Shown here in pieces: positions 13,366 through 21,012 of a stretch of DNA of 64,000 bases. The stretch spans positions 1,116,001 to 1,180,000 of the forward strand of contig CANNEA010000001.1 of assembly GCA_947503525.1 (NCBI GenBank). The letters are read 5' to 3'. Each line of letters begins with the position of its first letter. Position 1 is the first letter of the stretch. Both the position numbers and the translations under genes were made by a program. The stretch comes from an uncultured Carboxylicivirga sp. GTDB taxonomy: Bacteria > Bacteroidota > Bacteroidia > Bacteroidales > Marinilabiliaceae. The notes under the pieces are model-generated. The model ran no database searches. It was not told the DNA's origin and saw only the letters and a program-made list of their open reading frames with translations.

Positions 13366-16300
13366 ATGAAAAACCTTTTGAAACCTGTTGTAATTCTATT
13401 GGTACTTCTTCTTACAAGTACCTTAACGCAAGCACAAGTTGGGCGTGAGTTTTGGTTTGTTGCACCCGAGGCAACTAGTTCACATGGTGATAAGCCGATC
13501 TTTTTTCGAATTACAACTTTTAATGAAGGTACCAACTTGACCATCGAATTTCCGGCCAATACAAACTTTACACCAATCAATGTTTACGTTCCGGCCAATA
13601 CTCAATACACGACGGCACAGGATGCATTTGAATTAGATGATATTGAAAATCGACCAAGTAATACAATATTAAATAAAGGAATACGAATTACAGCGCACGA
13701 TGCCGATGTTAGTGCGTATTATGAAATTGCCCATACTGGTAACCCTGATAAATTTACCCTTAAAGGACTTAATGCTTTAGGTACTGAATTTTTTATCCCA
13801 TCTCAAAATTCGTTCAGAAATAACAATCGTACTCCAATTGCAGACGAAAAGGTCGATATAGTAGCTACGGAAGATGATACTGAGGTAATAATCGTGCCAA
13901 CAGTTGATGTAGTTGGTCATAATAAAGGAGATACTATACGAGTAACTCTTAATCAGGGGCAGACATTTAGTGTTGAAAACCTTGATATTTCAAAGACCAG
14001 TTCAATGGCTGGTACATATGTTGAATCTAATAAACTAATTGCAATTACCATTTCTGATGACTCTATTCATAATAATGATGGAGGGAGTGCTCATGACATG
14101 ATAGGGGATCAGTTAATTCCTGTAAATGTCATTGGAACAGAGTACGTAATCGTTAATACATCTACAGATAATGTGCCAGGTAACCATGGTACAACACTAC
14201 GTGAAGTTTATATTACGGCCACTGAAGATGGAACGGTTATTTATAAAAATGGAAGTGCTACTATTGAAAGAAGTCTGAATCGAGGCGAGAGTACCCAAAT
14301 GACTATTACTGAAGATAATATGTATTTGGAGGCTAATAGACCCATTTATGTGTACCAGTTAGCCAGTTTACGCTTTGATGGAGATGGAAATGAAATAGGA
14401 AGTTCGCTCTTACCTCATGCTAATTGTACAGGTTCAGACATTGTAACTGTCAAACGTATTTTTGATAATGAGTTTTTTCTTCAACTTATGGTTAAAGGTA
14501 AAGATCGAGCGTCGTTTACCATACGTGATGAAGGTGGAACTAGCTTGGATTATTTGGATAACGTGGACTGGAAAATGGTTTTAGGAACTGATGGTAGTGG
14601 AACTTCTGATGCGTGGTATACTGCTAACATTCAATTAAGTGATAGATTATCTTCAGATGGTGGTAAGGTCTATTTTATTCAAAATACCGGAGGTCTGTTT
14701 CATTTAAGTATATTGGAAGAAAACAGAAGTAGTGTAAGTTATGGCTATTTTTCTTCGTTTAGCAATTTAAACGTAAATGGATTAACGGAAGGTTGTCAGG
14801 GAGATCATATCCTACTTAATACACTTGAGCCAATGCGATCCTATGAATGGTATTCCGATGTGAGCGGAGGCAATACGATTCTTTCAAATACCAGAGAATG
14901 CGAAGCGCGTGAAACAGGAACTTATTGGGTAAAAGCTGAAGTCATGTTTGGTGGTTGTGTTCTTACTGATAGTATTGATGTAGAGTTTATTCAACCTGAA
15001 ATTGATTTGGGTGGTGATACTCTGGTTTGTCCCGGTGAAGTTTTGACATTTGGATCTGATGATGTTACCAATGTATATGATTGGAGCAACGGAACCAATA
15101 ATAATTACACTGATGTTACAGTTACTGATGGATATTCAGGAACATTATCAGTTACGATAACGGATACGGAAGGGTGTTCTAACGCCGACACAGTTGCTAT
15201 AGGTTCATTTTCAGTACCAACAATTAATTTGGATGCAGTTTCTGTATGTGAAGGAGGTAGAATAACTAATTTGTCAAGCTTTGCCAGATATGAATGGAGT
15301 TTAAATGGCGTCATCTTAAATGCGGATCCAACACAAAATTACATTGACCCTGTTTCTTCAGGAAACTATGTGTTAACTGCCTATACAGAGAATGATTGTT
15401 CAATTACTGAAAACTTTGTTGTTACCGTTAGTCCTTTACCAACCTTTACCATAACGGATCAAAGCAGTTGCGAAGGTGAAACACATCGAATCGATGGTCC
15501 AACAGGAGCAACGTATGCATATACCTGGAGTACGGGTAGTAATGCAGCCTTCATTGATGTCGTCACCCCGGGTGATTATTGGCTTGAAGTTGAAGATGCT
15601 AATGGTTGTGAGTTTCGTCAGGATTTTTCTTTCAGACAACACATCTCTCTTCCTATTGATTTAGGTGATGACAGAAATGAATGTGCCGGAACACAAGTTG
15701 TTATTACCAATGATATTGATAACCTTCAAACCTATGCTAATTATCAGTGGTTCTTTGATGATGGTGTAACTTCGCAAGTTGCATTACCATCACCAAGTCC
15801 TGATCCAAGTTTACTAACATTAACCGGTGCTGCAACAGAAAGTGGAATATATACTGTTATAGCTGAGGATGCGAATGGTTGTGAAGTTAGTGATGATGTT
15901 GAAATTATTTTCTTTACAACAGATCCCCCGCCTATAAGCTTAGACAAAGATCTATGTTCAGGTAAGTCAATAACAATTTATTCTTCTCCAGGTTATAATA
16001 ACTATAGTTGGACTCTAAATGGGACTCCTATCCCAGGTACCAATGGCTTAAGTTCAATAATAAATAATCAAGCGGGAACCTATACGCTTACAGCTGAAGA
16101 TAATGGTTGTGTAAAAGAAGTTGAAATTGAAGTTGCACTTCATGAATCTCCAACCGTTGATCTACCAGACAACTTCTCATTTTGCCCGGGAACAGATAGT
16201 ACCATTTATATTACTAACTATACACCAGCTGTAACTGGCGGCGATTTTGCCTATTTGTACTGGAACGGGCAACGAAATAACAGGTACTACGATTGGACTA

Positions 16301-17964
16301 CAGATGGCCTTTCTGTAAATCAAGCCAGATGGTATACTGTAAATGTGGTTGATGAGTTTGGTTGCTCTGATTTTGATAATGTTCAGGTTACAGAACATCC
16401 CGAAACAACACTAACTTTAGTTGATCCAACACCGGTATGTGAGAATGATGGCTTTGAGTTGCAAAATCCTATTACTGATGCCACCTCTTATACTTGGTTT
16501 AAAGAAGAGGCTGCAGGTGATGTGCATTTGGTTGATGATGCCAACCACACTGTATTTCAAACAGGAACGTACCGATTGGATATACTAGATGTTAATGGCT
16601 GTGCGGCCAGTGATGAGTTAGTTTTGATTGCTAACCCTGTACCAAGTGTTGATTTAGGAAATGATTTGGCGATTTGTCAGTTTGAGACTTTAGAAGTGCA
16701 GGTTGATAATGATTATGCACAATACCGTTGGAATGACGACCCTGCATTAAATACCAAATCCATATCGGTTAATACAAGTGGCACCTATAAGTTGGAAGTA
16801 GCTAATGATCATGGATGCTGGGCAGAAGATCAGATTGATGTTACAGTTAGTTCTGCACCTGTTTTTTCTTTGGGTAGACCGGGGCCTGAATGTCCTGGAC
16901 ATCTGTTCACATTAAGCGGACCAGCTGGTATGGCCGAATACCAATGGTCAAGTCTTGAAAATACTCAAACGGTACAAAAATATAATGGTACTTATAGTCT
17001 TAAGGTAAAAGATTTAAATGGATGCGAGTTTGCCGATACTGTGACTTTAAGTAATCATCTTATTCCAAGTGTTAATCTTGGACCTGATACAACTATATGT
17101 CCATTATATGGCGATTTTGAGTTGGATGCTGGTCCTGGTTTTGCCAGTTATGCATGGAGTACCAACGATAATACCCAAACGACCATTGCAGATATATTTG
17201 AAGCTATCAATACCGTGACAGTTACTAGTGCGGAAGGTTGTATTGATGGCGATGATGTTTTGGTTATTCATATGGAACCGCCAGTATTGGAAATTCTGGA
17301 TGATGAAGCGGTTTGTGATTTGGATTCTATTCAGTTGGATGCAAGTGGTGATGATTTGATAGAATGGGAGTGGAGTAATGGTTCAACGGATCCTTATCCT
17401 TGGGTAAAAGAGGCTGGTGAATATATACTTCGAGCCAATGATGGTTGTGTGTGGATGGCGGATACCATGGAGTTAGTTGTGCATGAAACCCCGGTTGTGT
17501 CAAGAATCGATACAACAATTTATGCCCAAGTAGTCATTTATCCTTTAGGAGGCACAGAACCCTATATGTATGCAATTAATGATGAAGCCTATCAAAATGA
17601 AAATGTATTTAAGAATCTGGAAAATGGAGATCACACATTTTGGGTAGAAGATGATAATGGTTGCATAACTTCAGAATTGGTTTCGCTGTATGACGTTTTG
17701 GATATTGAAATTCCTAACTTTTTTACACCTAATGGAGATGGATACAATGATACCTGGAATCTTTCAGGATTTGATCGCGTACCCGACTCAATTATAAAAA
17801 TTTACGATCGCTACGGAAAACTACTTAAAAAATATAAAGTATCAGACCCGGCATGGGATGGTACATATCTGGGTAAGCATTTACGAACCGATGATTATTG
17901 GTATGTAATAGAACTTATTCCAATAGATAAAATTCTCAAAGGACACCTAACCCTAAAACGCTAA
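13366..17964 (+). CDS. Large T9SS-secreted surface protein, IgGFc-binding-like N-terminus, Ig-like repeats, type B sorting domain
   Basis: Secreted protein of 1532 residues. A signal peptide (ends near TQAQ) is followed by an IgGFc-binding-like region (about 25-460). Then come about twelve modules of roughly 75-85 residues (about 470-1395), each with a Cys near the start, a YxWS/T strand and a GCxxxD ending. One SprB-like repeat (GGTEPYMYAIN...DDNGC) and a gliding-associated type B C-terminal domain (IPNFFTPNGDGYND to the end) complete it. The final domain marks it for T9SS export. The gene for a PorP/SprF-type protein starts 6 bp after its stop, matching the known SprB-SprF pairing. Adhesion is inferred. 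Confidence 0.9.
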   Translation: MKNLLKPVVILLVLLLTSTLTQAQVGREFWFVAPEATSSHGDKPIFFRITTFNEGTNLTIEFPANTNFTPINVYVPANTQYTTAQDAFELDDIENRPSNTILNKGIRITAHDADVSAYYEIAHTGNPDKFTLKGLNALGTEFFIPSQNSFRNNNRTPIADEKVDIVATEDDTEVIIVPTVDVVGHNKGDTIRVTLNQGQTFSVENLDISKTSSMAGTYVESNKLIAITISDDSIHNNDGGSAHDMIGDQLIPVNVIGTEYVIVNTSTDNVPGNHGTTLREVYITATEDGTVIYKNGSATIERSLNRGESTQMTITEDNMYLEANRPIYVYQLASLRFDGDGNEIGSSLLPHANCTGSDIVTVKRIFDNEFFLQLMVKGKDRASFTIRDEGGTSLDYLDNVDWKMVLGTDGSGTSDAWYTANIQLSDRLSSDGGKVYFIQNTGGLFHLSILEENRSSVSYGYFSSFSNLNVNGLTEGCQGDHILLNTLEPMRSYEWYSDVSGGNTILSNTRECEARETGTYWVKAEVMFGGCVLTDSIDVEFIQPEIDLGGDTLVCPGEVLTFGSDDVTNVYDWSNGTNNNYTDVTVTDGYSGTLSVTITDTEGCSNADTVAIGSFSVPTINLDAVSVCEGGRITNLSSFARYEWSLNGVILNADPTQNYIDPVSSGNYVLTAYTENDCSITENFVVTVSPLPTFTITDQSSCEGETHRIDGPTGATYAYTWSTGSNAAFIDVVTPGDYWLEVEDANGCEFRQDFSFRQHISLPIDLGDDRNECAGTQVVITNDIDNLQTYANYQWFFDDGVTSQVALPSPSPDPSLLTLTGAATESGIYTVIAEDANGCEVSDDVEIIFFTTDPPPISLDKDLCSGKSITIYSSPGYNNYSWTLNGTPIPGTNGLSSIINNQAGTYTLTAEDNGCVKEVEIEVALHESPTVDLPDNFSFCPGTDSTIYITNYTPAVTGGDFAYLYWNGQRNNRYYDWTTDGLSVNQARWYTVNVVDEFGCSDFDNVQVTEHPETTLTLVDPTPVCENDGFELQNPITDATSYTWFKEEAAGDVHLVDDANHTVFQTGTYRLDILDVNGCAASDELVLIANPVPSVDLGNDLAICQFETLEVQVDNDYAQYRWNDDPALNTKSISVNTSGTYKLEVANDHGCWAEDQIDVTVSSAPVFSLGRPGPECPGHLFTLSGPAGMAEYQWSSLENTQTVQKYNGTYSLKVKDLNGCEFADTVTLSNHLIPSVNLGPDTTICPLYGDFELDAGPGFASYAWSTNDNTQTTIADIFEAINTVTVTSAEGCIDGDDVLVIHMEPPVLEILDDEAVCDLDSIQLDASGDDLIEWEWSNGSTDPYPWVKEAGEYILRANDGCVWMADTMELVVHETPVVSRIDTTIYAQVVIYPLGGTEPYMYAINDEAYQNENVFKNLENGDHTFWVEDDNGCITSELVSLYDVLDIEIPNFFTPNGDGYNDTWNLSGFDRVPDSIIKIYDRYGKLLKKYKVSDPAWDGTYLGKHLRTDDYWYVIELIPIDKILKGHLTLKR

Positions 17965-17970
17965 TCCTTT

Positions 17971-18978
17971 ATGAGAAAGCTTCTAATTTTTGTTTGCCTG
18001 TTGGTTTTATCATCAGGCATGCAAGCGCAAAAGTACTACCTGACAAATCAATATGCTTATGATTTGTTTCAGGTAAATCCTTCTGCGGCAGCTTTTGAAA
18101 AGAATTGTATATCAGCCAATGCCTTCTATCAAAAACAATGGTTTGGCACAGAATTGGCGCCAACTACTCAGATTCTTAGCTTTCAGATGCCTGTTACAGG
18201 TAGTATGGGATCAGGTACTTATGTGTACAATGATCGCAATGGTTATTTCAAAGAAATGGGTTTGCATCAGGCTTTTTCGTATGAAGTACTTTTAACTAAG
18301 AAACGAAAGAAAAGAGTAACCCTCTCATTTGGTTTGGCCTTTATGCTTGAACAAACATCTTTGGATCAAACAAGTTTAGTAGACCCCGGATATTTTGATC
18401 CGATTATTGATGGTTCAAAGGAGGTAGGTTACGGATTCAATGCAAGTGCCGGAGCGGTTTTAAAATACAATGATATGCATATGGGGCTTGCAGTTACGAA
18501 TTTAGCTCCTGAAACTAATCCAATGTATAAATCGCCACTAGAACCGCCTAAAGCAATGGATTTTCACTTTCATGCCGGGGGAAGTTTTAAAGTTGCGGAT
18601 CGTGATTTATACATTGAGCCTTTAGTGATGTTTCGTAGAAATAGTTTAACTGATAGTCGCCTGGATTTAAATATGAAATTGTACCTGCCAACACCTAATC
18701 CTGATTTTGCTACCTGGGGTTTGGTTTCTTATCGTCATAACCTCGATCATCAGATAGGAAAAAGTGTAGGTATGGCTGTAACCGGTGGTGTGGTGTATAA
18801 ACAATTTAGTATGGGTTTAGAATATCAACTTGGATTGACAACTGCGCAAATTGATTACGGTAGTAATTACCAGTTGATTTTAAGTTATCGTATTTGCTTT
18901 AATAAGAAAAAGGGCGCAATACCTTGTTCTAAGGTTCGTATGAATAAAAAGGCGAATTATAAGTTTTTAGGCTACTAG
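17971..18978 (+). CDS. PorP/SprF-family outer membrane protein (first copy)
   Basis: Type IX secretion-associated outer membrane protein of 335 residues with a signal peptide ending near MQAQ. It begins with the family-typical YYLTNQYAYDLFQVNPSAAA segment and continues as alternating beta-strands of a predicted barrel. SprF-like members are known to be needed for export or surface attachment of type B sorting-domain proteins. Its position 6 bp after the 1532-residue substrate suggests that it serves that protein. The stretch 18979-19106 after it holds no recognisable terminator. Confidence 0.9.
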   Translation: MRKLLIFVCLLVLSSGMQAQKYYLTNQYAYDLFQVNPSAAAFEKNCISANAFYQKQWFGTELAPTTQILSFQMPVTGSMGSGTYVYNDRNGYFKEMGLHQAFSYEVLLTKKRKKRVTLSFGLAFMLEQTSLDQTSLVDPGYFDPIIDGSKEVGYGFNASAGAVLKYNDMHMGLAVTNLAPETNPMYKSPLEPPKAMDFHFHAGGSFKVADRDLYIEPLVMFRRNSLTDSRLDLNMKLYLPTPNPDFATWGLVSYRHNLDHQIGKSVGMAVTGGVVYKQFSMGLEYQLGLTTAQIDYGSNYQLILSYRICFNKKKGAIPCSKVRMNKKANYKFLGY

Positions 18979-19106
18979 ATCATTTTAGAGTAATTCTTTA
19001 ACATTTTTAATCTTCTCATAAGTTTTTTATTTACAGTGTGCTTTGGTTTTGCCAAATCATATCTAATAATTAGATTTACGTAAAGAATTCTAAAAATACC
19101 TTAGCT

Positions 19107-20039
19107 TTGATAGACACCCGACTTAGTTTTCTTATTGTCTTATTAATCTGCACTTTCGTTGCCATAGAGGCAGAAGATAATGTGTGGACTGGAATGGTAG
19201 TTGAAGTCATAGCGAATGATGATTTTGCTCAGCTATATGAAAATGAATCAAATTCAATTAATGTACTGCATAACGATTTTGGTTTATATGTAGGGGTTGA
19301 GTCTTTGGAAATTGTGGAAGCGCCACAGTTTGGACAGGCTTCGGTTCAGGAAGACAATACTATTTTATATGAACCTGAAATATCCTTTTGGGGAGATGAC
19401 GTACTGATTTATAAAGTTTGCAATACTGATGGTTCATGCGATGAAGCCCGTGTTCGTATTCGGGTTAACGATGTTGACTTTAAGCCAATAGCGGTTAATG
19501 ATTCAGTAGATTATGTGCATGGAACCGAAGTAAGTATTCCCATTTTAAATAATGATACTATTAAAGGAGACTTTCCTATATCAGTTGAAATTATTCAGGA
19601 ATTTGAACATGCTGATGCTTATTTGGACGATAACGAGCTTATCCCAAGTTTTAATAGAGCATTTGGAGGAATAGACTCCTTGCAATATGAAATCTGTGAT
19701 GCAGATGGAGATTGCAGTTCTGCATGGGTGTTTGCAGATGTAAAGCATGATGGGAGTAGCGATTTTTATATACCCAATGGATTTTCACCTAATGGAGATG
19801 GTTTTAATGATGTGTTTTACATCCCTGATTTTAATACCTATACAAATATCACTGTGAATATATTTTCGGAATGGGGGCAGTTGGTGTATCAAAGTTCAGA
19901 TTACCAAAATAATTGGAATGGCGAAGCCAATGCTGGAAATATGAAAGGTAAGATTTTGGACTCCGGTACTTATTATTATTCTTTCTCTATTAAAGGGCTT
20001 GATAAAATAATTACCGGATATGTTTATTTAAACAGATAG
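19107..20039 (+). CDS. T9SS-secreted protein with two Ig-like (Big_9-type) domains and type B sorting domain
   Basis: Protein of 310 residues. It appears to start at TTG 19107, since the open frame back to the stop at 19071 has no ATG and the TTG opens a signal peptide (LSFLIVLLICTFVAIEA). Two cadherin-like/Big_9 domains follow (about 35-122 and 128-215; motifs ANDDF, VLHNDFG and ILNNDT), then the type B domain (IPNGFSPNGDGFND to the end). It is smaller than most members of this class. It forms a unit with the PorP/SprF-type gene that starts 1 bp after its stop. Confidence 0.85.
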   Translation: MIDTRLSFLIVLLICTFVAIEAEDNVWTGMVVEVIANDDFAQLYENESNSINVLHNDFGLYVGVESLEIVEAPQFGQASVQEDNTILYEPEISFWGDDVLIYKVCNTDGSCDEARVRIRVNDVDFKPIAVNDSVDYVHGTEVSIPILNNDTIKGDFPISVEIIQEFEHADAYLDDNELIPSFNRAFGGIDSLQYEICDADGDCSSAWVFADVKHDGSSDFYIPNGFSPNGDGFNDVFYIPDFNTYTNITVNIFSEWGQLVYQSSDYQNNWNGEANAGNMKGKILDSGTYYYSFSIKGLDKIITGYVYLNR

Positions 20040-20040
20040 G

Positions 20041-21012
20041 ATGAGAAGAAGAATAAACATATTACTTTTTGTCCTTCTATCTTTTATGATTGATATAAGC
20101 GCTCAATTGGAACCATTGTCGACTCAGTATATCAATTCGCAATTACTGATTAATCCGGGCTATACAGGTGTGCGTAATGCTCTTTCTGTAAATATAATGG
20201 CCCGCCATCAATGGATGGGAGTGGATGGAGCCCCTGTTAATTATAATGTAGGTTTGCATTCACCATTAAATAAATCCTTGGTTTCACTGGGTGCTGCTCT
20301 TAATTCCTATCAGGCAGGTCCGGTTCAAAATCATCGTTTAAATCTGTATTATGCCTATTTGGTTCGAGTGCGACATAATATGATGCTGTCGTTGGGAATA
20401 AGTGCGGTGCTTAATAATTACAACCTGGCTCATAAAGATCTTCGCATAATAGATGAAGGTGATCCATACTTTACTGGCGAGAAACTAAGTAAATTTTCCC
20501 CGAATGCTGGTGCAGGATTGTTTTTATATTCGCCTTCATTTTATTTTGGCTTATCAGTTCCACAACTGTTAGAAAGTAAATACAAACGGGAGGATGGCCT
20601 TGTTGTATCTCAAGTACGAAGGCATTATTATTTATCAAGTGGTTATGGATTTGGTATAGGTAAAGATTTCTATCTCAAACCATCTGCATTATTTCGCTTT
20701 GTTGAAAGTGGCCAATCCAGCATTGATTTTAATGCTCAATTGATGTATAAGGAGATGCTTTCATTTGGACTATCGTATCGCTTAAATACCGCAATTGCTG
20801 CTATGGCCGGTTTTCGCTTATCTAAGACGGTTAATATTAATTATTCTTACGATATGTCTACTGCTCCTGCTGGATTGGGGAAGGGAAGTCATGAAATTAC
20901 GATCAGTTTTGATACCAGTGAAATGCTTCGTCGAAATCGCGATCGCTTATTCCGAAAGAAAAAGAAGGATAATAGCGAAGAAGCTGGAATGAGATCGATT
21001 AGGTATTTCTAG
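20041..21012 (+). CDS. PorP/SprF-family outer membrane protein (second copy)
   Basis: Type IX secretion-associated barrel of 323 residues with a signal peptide ending near DISAQ. The start LEPLSTQYINSQLLINPGYTG and the following RHQWMGVDGAP are hallmark PorP/SprF segments. It is clearly divergent from the copy at 17971. The 1-bp gap from the 310-residue substrate implies translational coupling and a dedicated pairing. The C-terminus is highly basic (RNRDRLFRKKKKDN), which is unusual after the last barrel strand. Confidence 0.9.
   Translation: MRRRINILLFVLLSFMIDISAQLEPLSTQYINSQLLINPGYTGVRNALSVNIMARHQWMGVDGAPVNYNVGLHSPLNKSLVSLGAALNSYQAGPVQNHRLNLYYAYLVRVRHNMMLSLGISAVLNNYNLAHKDLRIIDEGDPYFTGEKLSKFSPNAGAGLFLYSPSFYFGLSVPQLLESKYKREDGLVVSQVRRHYYLSSGYGFGIGKDFYLKPSALFRFVESGQSSIDFNAQLMYKEMLSFGLSYRLNTAIAAMAGFRLSKTVNINYSYDMSTAPAGLGKGSHEITISFDTSEMLRRNRDRLFRKKKKDNSEEAGMRSIRYF

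Follow-up and report, generated by a model that had tools for sequence, protein, structure and literature searches.

In a 64,000-nucleotide stretch of DNA from an uncultured Carboxylicivirga sp. (contig CANNEA010000001.1, positions 1,116,001 to 1,180,000 of the forward strand; hereafter the window), two type B cargos of the type IX secretion system (T9SS), one large and one small, are each followed directly by the gene for a carrier of the PorP/SprF family. The four genes form an old block whose carriers end in unlike C-tails: PorP1, behind the large cargo 1, has conserved tail cysteines, and PorP2, behind the small cargo 2, lacks a tail Cys and belongs to a group that ends in S-x-R-x-F. This contrast within one block is new here. 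We tentatively read the block as one track-coupled (PorP1) and one static (PorP2) type B display cassette that travel together, a reading that we consider quite possible without yet calling it probable. The features on which the argument rests are the following.

13366..17964, plus strand: cargo 1, large T9SS type B cargo, 1532 residues (open reading frame, domain profiles)
17704..17961, plus strand: type B C-terminal sorting domain (CTD) of cargo 1 (TIGR04131, 104.2 bits; 111.2 bits in the genome scan)
17971..18978, plus strand: PorP1, PorP/SprF carrier of cargo 1, 335 residues, Cys tail (profiles, alignment)
18106..18108, plus strand: PorP1 Cys46, invariant, start of the first predicted barrel strand (alignment, model)
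18895..18897, plus strand: PorP1 Cys309, invariant, end of the last predicted strand (alignment, model)
18925..18927, plus strand: PorP1 Cys319 in the motif A-I-P-C-S, proposed track-reactive cysteine (alignment; putative function)
19102..19109, plus strand: TAGCTTTG, candidate Bacteroidota -7 promoter element over the assumed cargo 2 start (sequence)
19107..20039, plus strand: cargo 2, small type B cargo, 310 residues, start codon unsure (open reading frame, profiles)
19770..20036, plus strand: type B CTD of cargo 2 (profile matches)
20041..21012, plus strand: PorP2, PorP/SprF carrier of cargo 2, 323 residues, no tail Cys (profiles, alignment)
20995..21009, plus strand: PorP2 C-terminal S-I-R-Y-F (orthologue alignment)

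The gaps between cargo and carrier are 6 bp for cargo 1 and PorP1 and 1 bp for cargo 2 and PorP2. Both CTDs exceed the cut-offs of TIGR04131, the type B sorting domain (104.2 bits for cargo 1 and 53.4 for cargo 2; cut-off 35), and of the CHU_C profile (58.7 and 80.6 bits; cut-off 27), and both carriers match full length to TIGR03519 for PorP/SprF (PorP1 145.9, PorP2 235.4 bits; cut-off 90.55) and PF11751 (142.6 and 233 bits; cut-off 22.3). Cargo 1 consists of an IgGFc_binding domain (residues 134-404), Ig-like repeats and the CTD, cargo 2 of a Big_9/cadherin-like part with Cx5C pairs and the CTD. As evidenced by coordinates and profiles, the two cassettes that the original prediction had proposed are real and not a chance arrangement, and its picture of unequal cargos with divergent partners holds as well: the carriers are 25% identical (core), and a cognate partner for each cargo agrees with published work on Flavobacterium johnsoniae and Porphyromonas gingivalis. 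Export of both cargos would depend on the T9SS translocon and on each cargo's own PorP/SprF carrier.

The pairing itself is ordinary, and it is the old two-slot block with unlike carrier tails that is notable. A scan of the window's own genome (6.56 Mb, 39 contigs) gave 10 PorP/SprF and 10 TIGR04131 matches, two of the latter below that model's cut-off; a type B CTD directly precedes nine of the ten PorP genes, and nine of the ten TIGR04131 matches are in turn followed by a PorP gene, so that cargo-then-carrier is the rule of this genome and not a peculiarity of the locus. A second such tandem, in which a PorE-like gene lies between the two modules, is found on contig C8. The unpaired carrier stands directly before a gldK homologue, identified by alignment, in a porPKLMN operon-like setting. 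Note that PorPs without a detected cargo directly upstream (L093, L296, L297, L306, L309) end in R/K-[FYW]-L, and that the PorP of this genome with such an end is the one before gldK. The unpaired type B CTD (G000:C2:1119621-1119836) sits in a 424-residue frame and has no PorP neighbour. Over nine pairs each, CTD and carrier identities co-vary both in this genome (Mantel r 0.75, p 0.0004) and in the presumed F. johnsoniae described below (r 0.80, p 0.0006), as is expected of cognate pairs or of any jointly inherited pairs.

The age of the block was assessed by searching each carrier against 40 genomes, the window's own included, and by comparing stretches of up to 20 kb. The order cargo 1, PorP1, cargo 2, PorP2 is present in all 13 other genomes of the genus. 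Among ten genomes of other Marinilabiliaceae genera, five carry the contiguous block (G014, G015, G017, G020, G021), one has its parts at two contig ends (G019), one has cassette 1 alone on its contig (G022), and in three (G016, G018, G023) no PorP1 orthologue was found. A pattern-based scan with the PorP1 alignment yielded 43 loci (the 43-locus set), by NCBI ranks 40 from Marinilabiliaceae and three titled only 'Bacteroidales bacterium'; the two collections are not independent, since at least 24 of the 43 loci recur, as identical stretches, among those of the 40-genome comparison. By script, all four genes are present in 30 of the 43. Five of the other 13 (L225-L229, all Carboxylicivirga) are extra stand-alone copies of cassette 1, and the remaining eight reflect the end of a contig or a gene that is broken, undetected or absent. 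Intact copies of cargo 1 measure 1389-2460 residues and those of cargo 2 301-355. Second copies of the block, in G014 (L083, cargo 2 split into two frames) and in Breznakibacter (L258, cargo 2 broken), are apparently decaying.

Alignment of the two cassettes with one another, which the original prediction had proposed, gave 25% identity for the carriers and 32% for the CTDs, in line with divergent partners, and PorP1 and PorP2 are each nearer to their orthologues in other genera than to one another. The block is therefore old and not a recent duplication, and the predicted duplicated cassette has to be given up; the predicted specialisation stands in a modified form, by way of the unlike carrier C-tails, a feature which that prediction had not seen. 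Published work on F. johnsoniae reports cross-handling of a CTD by the carrier of another cargo where the two CTDs shared 68% identity, and not at 43% or 26% (excerpts of Paillat 2025, PMC12618676). Set against this pattern, 32% makes it unlikely that the two carriers of the block handle each other's cargo.

In PorP1 orthologues, Cys46, Cys309 and Cys319 are conserved in 23 of 23, and Cys46 is invariant also in a 21-row alignment (A1). The tail Cys pair is found at all 43 loci of the 43-locus set, spaced C-x9-C in 42 and C-x10-C in one. PorP2 orthologues have no conserved tail Cys, with a Cys within the last 30 residues in only one of 21, and all 21 end in S-x-R-x-F or S-x-R-x-FF; an R-x-F or R-x-FF end is likewise present at all 31 loci of the 43-locus set where the script found PorP2. 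In the own genome a tail Cys occurs in three of the ten carriers, namely PorP1 and the carriers of cargos in frames of 7054 and 1642 residues, and all three share the motif A-[IV]-P-C-S. The 7054-residue frame (L095, G000:C6:214001-224000) is a candidate SprB-like giant adhesin before its Cys-tailed PorP. In another family of the phylum, L157, L158 and L159 show two same-strand PorP genes about 3.5 kb apart, both ending in [IM]PCF[KR]Y.

In the predicted structure of PorP1, which was modelled as a fusion, residue 46 opens the first strand and residue 309 closes the last (fused numbering minus 105). Cys46 and Cys309 may therefore lie opposite one another at the rim on the periplasmic side, with Cys319 left over. 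The fusion model matches FadL and the PorV chain 8gl6_F (Foldseek TMt 0.54). Sequence searches of the PDB gave no match for PorP1 or the carrier of L144, and for the carrier of L183 only spurious designed proteins.

The choice between towed and fixed T9SS type B adhesins has been approached through two published hints, on excerpts of which we draw here: a postulated link to PorE (Gorasia 2022, PMC9143113; Paillat 2025) and a disulfide between SprF and GldK (Liu 2025, PMC12635249). SprF Cys326 is disulfide-bonded to GldK Cys343, the Cys-X-Cys of the SprF tail is required for movement and not for export, and the reactive Cys of GldK is invariant, non-gliders included (Liu 2025). Two type B cargos depend on their cognate carriers, and SprB and Fjoh_4750 are mobile, while Fjoh_3952 is static (Paillat 2025). 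Complexes of PorE, PorP and PG1035 and of SprF and SprB were described, and static cargos were postulated to be held via PorE (Gorasia 2022). The mobile/static idea and its link to PorE adjacency are thus already published; tail classes as a sign of mobile or static fate are not stated in the excerpts of the SprF/type B CTD, PorP/PorE motif and SprF cysteine literature that we consulted. Carrier tails would offer a sequence-level test of the towed/fixed choice, and the block is a natural paired experiment, with two unlike carriers and two cargos at one locus.

Under the preferred reading, and by analogy with the homologues of F. johnsoniae and P. gingivalis, each cargo would be exported via the T9SS translocon, its own carrier, a FadL/PorV-like barrel (PorP1 or PorP2), would pick it up by the CTD, and the cargo would remain bound to this carrier at the surface. 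The carriers would then differ in their periplasmic tie point, both tie points being putative. PorP1 Cys319 would be disulfide-bonded to GldK, part of the moving track, with Cys46 and Cys309 as a structural or resolving pair, and the large cargo 1 would be towed along the gliding track via PorP1. PorP2, with its S-I-R-Y-F end and no tail Cys, would be held static, the most likely anchor being a peptidoglycan-binding protein of PorE type whose gene lies elsewhere.

A comparison with carriers of published behaviour was made in genome G417, which we take to be F. johnsoniae on the basis of CTD identities and of cysteine positions in GldK and SprF. Identities of its L209 CTD with the CTDs of L211, L213 and L216 are 68.0, 44.3 and 26.1%, the published values for Fjoh_3952 against 1645, 3971 and SprB being 68, 43 and 26% (PMC12618676); the cysteines of its GldK are at positions 17, 285 and 343, as published for F. 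johnsoniae, and its SprF frame has C347 and C349, equal to 324 and 326 for a start 23 residues further downstream. PorP matches number 11 in G417; six adjoin a PorE-like gene and all six of these end in [ST]PRFF, among them the carrier of the static Fjoh_3952, which ends in SPRFF (the published number of PorE-type operons in F. johnsoniae is six in the excerpt of Gorasia 2022 and five in that of Paillat 2025). Three carriers have a tail Cys and none of them a PorE neighbour: SprF (tail NCPC, C-x-C), a carrier at 1.95 Mb with no adjacent cargo (CNC, C-x-C; probable Fjoh_1677) and a carrier at 5.74 Mb (CFGC, C-x-x-C; probable Fjoh_4749, carrier of Fjoh_4750), where for the last two the assignment relies on genomic position, strand and adjoining genes and not on sequence. 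The remaining two comprise one without a tail and one in a 1589-residue frame; the latter (L219, G417:C1:1119112), which follows a gene with a type B CTD, combines a PorP domain with a long stretch rich in Ala and Lys. Two clearly and one partly mobile cargo would thus have Cys-tailed carriers and one clearly static cargo a carrier without tail Cys, a correspondence of four points, one of them weak and two indirectly assigned. In the window's genome, GldK Cys322 aligns with GldK Cys343, which is weak evidence because that Cys is published as invariant. GldJ scores above cut-off, but with GldJ in 37 of the 40 genomes (E up to 1e-60) its presence does not separate holders of the block from others.

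We further surveyed carrier tails against neighbouring PorE-like genes. A first sample held 178 distinct carriers, after removal of one cut sequence, three with short flanks and nine duplicates; it was drawn partly from best matches ranked by E-value, with a heavy share of Flavobacteriaceae and of the block's own orthologues. A further bias is that the three proteins used to search for PorE came from beside Cys-free carriers of the own genome, and a tail Cys was any Cys in the last 30 residues, a definition that also catches strand cysteines (L217 and some R-F-L-ending PorPs). A PorE neighbour was found for none of 66 Cys-tailed carriers against 72 of 112 without tail Cys, and for 68 of 99 carriers ending in R-x-F against 4 of 79 with other ends. 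After exclusion of the block loci (n=134) the figures were 0 of 38 against 72 of 96 for Cys, and 68 of 82 against 4 of 52 for R-x-F. The motif [ILVM]-P-C is present in 35 of the 66 Cys-tailed carriers, many of them PorP1 orthologues. A second sample of 97 carriers came from 26 genomes outside Flavobacteriaceae and Marinilabiliaceae, with about half of its stretches from the window's order, and excluded three duplicates, one long sequence, two with short flanks and all members of the first sample. Here the R-x-F half was replicated, on few R-x-F rows (4 of 5 against 7 of 92, p 0.0004 by a Fisher test that, like the one that follows, ignores kinship), and the Cys half was not.

Several observations weigh against track coupling of PorP1 and a PorE hold on PorP2. 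In the second sample, a PorE neighbour accompanied 7 of 53 Cys-tailed carriers and 4 of 44 without tail Cys (p 0.75), and the exclusion of a PorE neighbour by a Cys tail is rejected as a phylum-wide rule. Independent contrasts in the tree are too few, and neither Cys nor R-x-F reaches significance: on the starred branches, seven independent Cys contrasts showed PorE changing the same way in none and the opposite way in one or two, and the joint set of 275 gave 12 Cys contrasts with PorE means of 0.6 the same and 1.4 the opposite way. The R-x-F contrasts went mostly the same way as PorE, on average 2.5 against 0.1 of four in the first sample and 2.0 against 0.1 of four in the joint set. Within 700 bp of PorP2 or of its surveyed orthologues there is no PorE-like gene. 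The tail spacing of PorP1 is not the C-x-C of SprF, for which reason we do not class PorP1 as SprF and regard it only as possibly SprF-like in action. The carriers of the cargos in the 7054- and 1642-residue frames combine their tail Cys with a K-I-F or R-I-F end, so that the two tail features are not exclusive. SprB fused to the CTD of Fjoh_1123 was mostly static, moving in 3% of 525 cells (PMC12618676, excerpt). The fusion models have predicted TM-scores (pTM) of 0.63 and 0.66, with confident domains, few paired alignment rows and no visible docking. Finally, no evidence of gliding by this organism was found, the Carboxylicivirga literature giving only a mention in methods in the excerpts consulted.

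A broader form of the idea is doubtful to us: that the C-tail is an address label, with a tail Cys leading to the moving GldJKN track and an R-[FYW]-F end to PorE at the cell wall, and that the block is a fixed two-slot device always deploying a moving large and a stationary small adhesin. If true, it would allow sequence-based prediction of mobile and static adhesins, in Flavobacteriaceae and Marinilabiliaceae at least.

The foremost alternative, unlikely in our view but one to be taken seriously, is that both cassettes are ordinary static adhesin cassettes, that cysteines 46, 309 and 319 of PorP1 staple its own barrel and that neither carrier touches the track. Cys46 and Cys309, which sit where the first predicted strand begins and the last one stops, would be neighbours in a closed barrel, the tail spacing departs from that of SprF, and in the second sample Cys tails adjoin PorE-like genes in other lineages, all of which this explanation accommodates. 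It fits less well that three cysteines leave one unpaired, that a single tail Cys in A-[IV]-P-C-S recurs in two other carriers of the own genome, and that the own GldK keeps its reactive Cys, though the latter is published as invariant also in non-gliders.

Less probable still, and on balance improbable, is a single functional unit in which cargo 2 serves cargo 1 as an accessory, be it cap, base or co-adhesin, and the two carriers work at one site. The large-then-small order is kept across the family together with the narrow size range of intact cargo 2, and in the 30 full blocks the four proteins co-vary in their pairwise identities, but a shared species tree explains this co-variation, and cassette 1 stands alone at the five Carboxylicivirga loci named above and on one contig of a metagenome-assembled genome (L088, L239). 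The cassettes are moreover separated by a 128-bp gap containing a promoter-like box. 

The assumed start of cargo 2, a TTG at 19107, lies within TAGCTTTG (19102-19109), which resembles the consensus of the Bacteroidota -7 element; with start and box coinciding, the N-terminus of cargo 2, and with it the length of 310 residues, is unsure. The pattern TAnnTTTG occurs in the last 90 bp before, or over, the cargo 2 start at 15 of 34 orthologous loci with cargo 2, whereas 500 rounds of shuffling the same stretches gave 2.3 on average and never more than 8 of 34, so that cassette 2 may own a separate promoter. The overlap at the locus itself suggests either such a promoter or a wrongly called start.

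That one cassette was recently duplicated in tandem and then diverged fast is very improbable and was rejected: the same gene order is present twice and cassette 1 is duplicated in relatives, but the low carrier and CTD identities given above, and orthologues of each carrier across genera that are nearer than the other copy, argue against it. A real cassette duplication is seen in G002, where two tandem copies of cassette 1 precede cassette 2 (L070, 5062-18903).

Among known systems, SprB-SprF of F. johnsoniae resembles cassette 1 in the type B cargo followed directly by its carrier, in cysteines of the carrier C-tail and in the partner Cys of GldK present in the genome; PorP1 differs in its C-x9-C instead of C-x-C and in the third invariant cysteine, Cys46, and falls outside the SprF group in the tree. 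The static systems Fjoh_3952-Fjoh_3951-Fjoh_3950 and PG1035-PorP-PorE are closest to cassette 2, with the R-Y-F end of PorP2 resembling the PRFF of carriers next to PorE and with no tail Cys, but PorP2 is without an adjoining PorE-like gene. PorV with a type A CTD (8gl6; RemA-CTD complex) shares with the PorP1 model the FadL-like barrel, as seen in the match to chain F, but whereas type A CTDs share PorV as their shuttle, the block described here has one carrier for each type B cargo.

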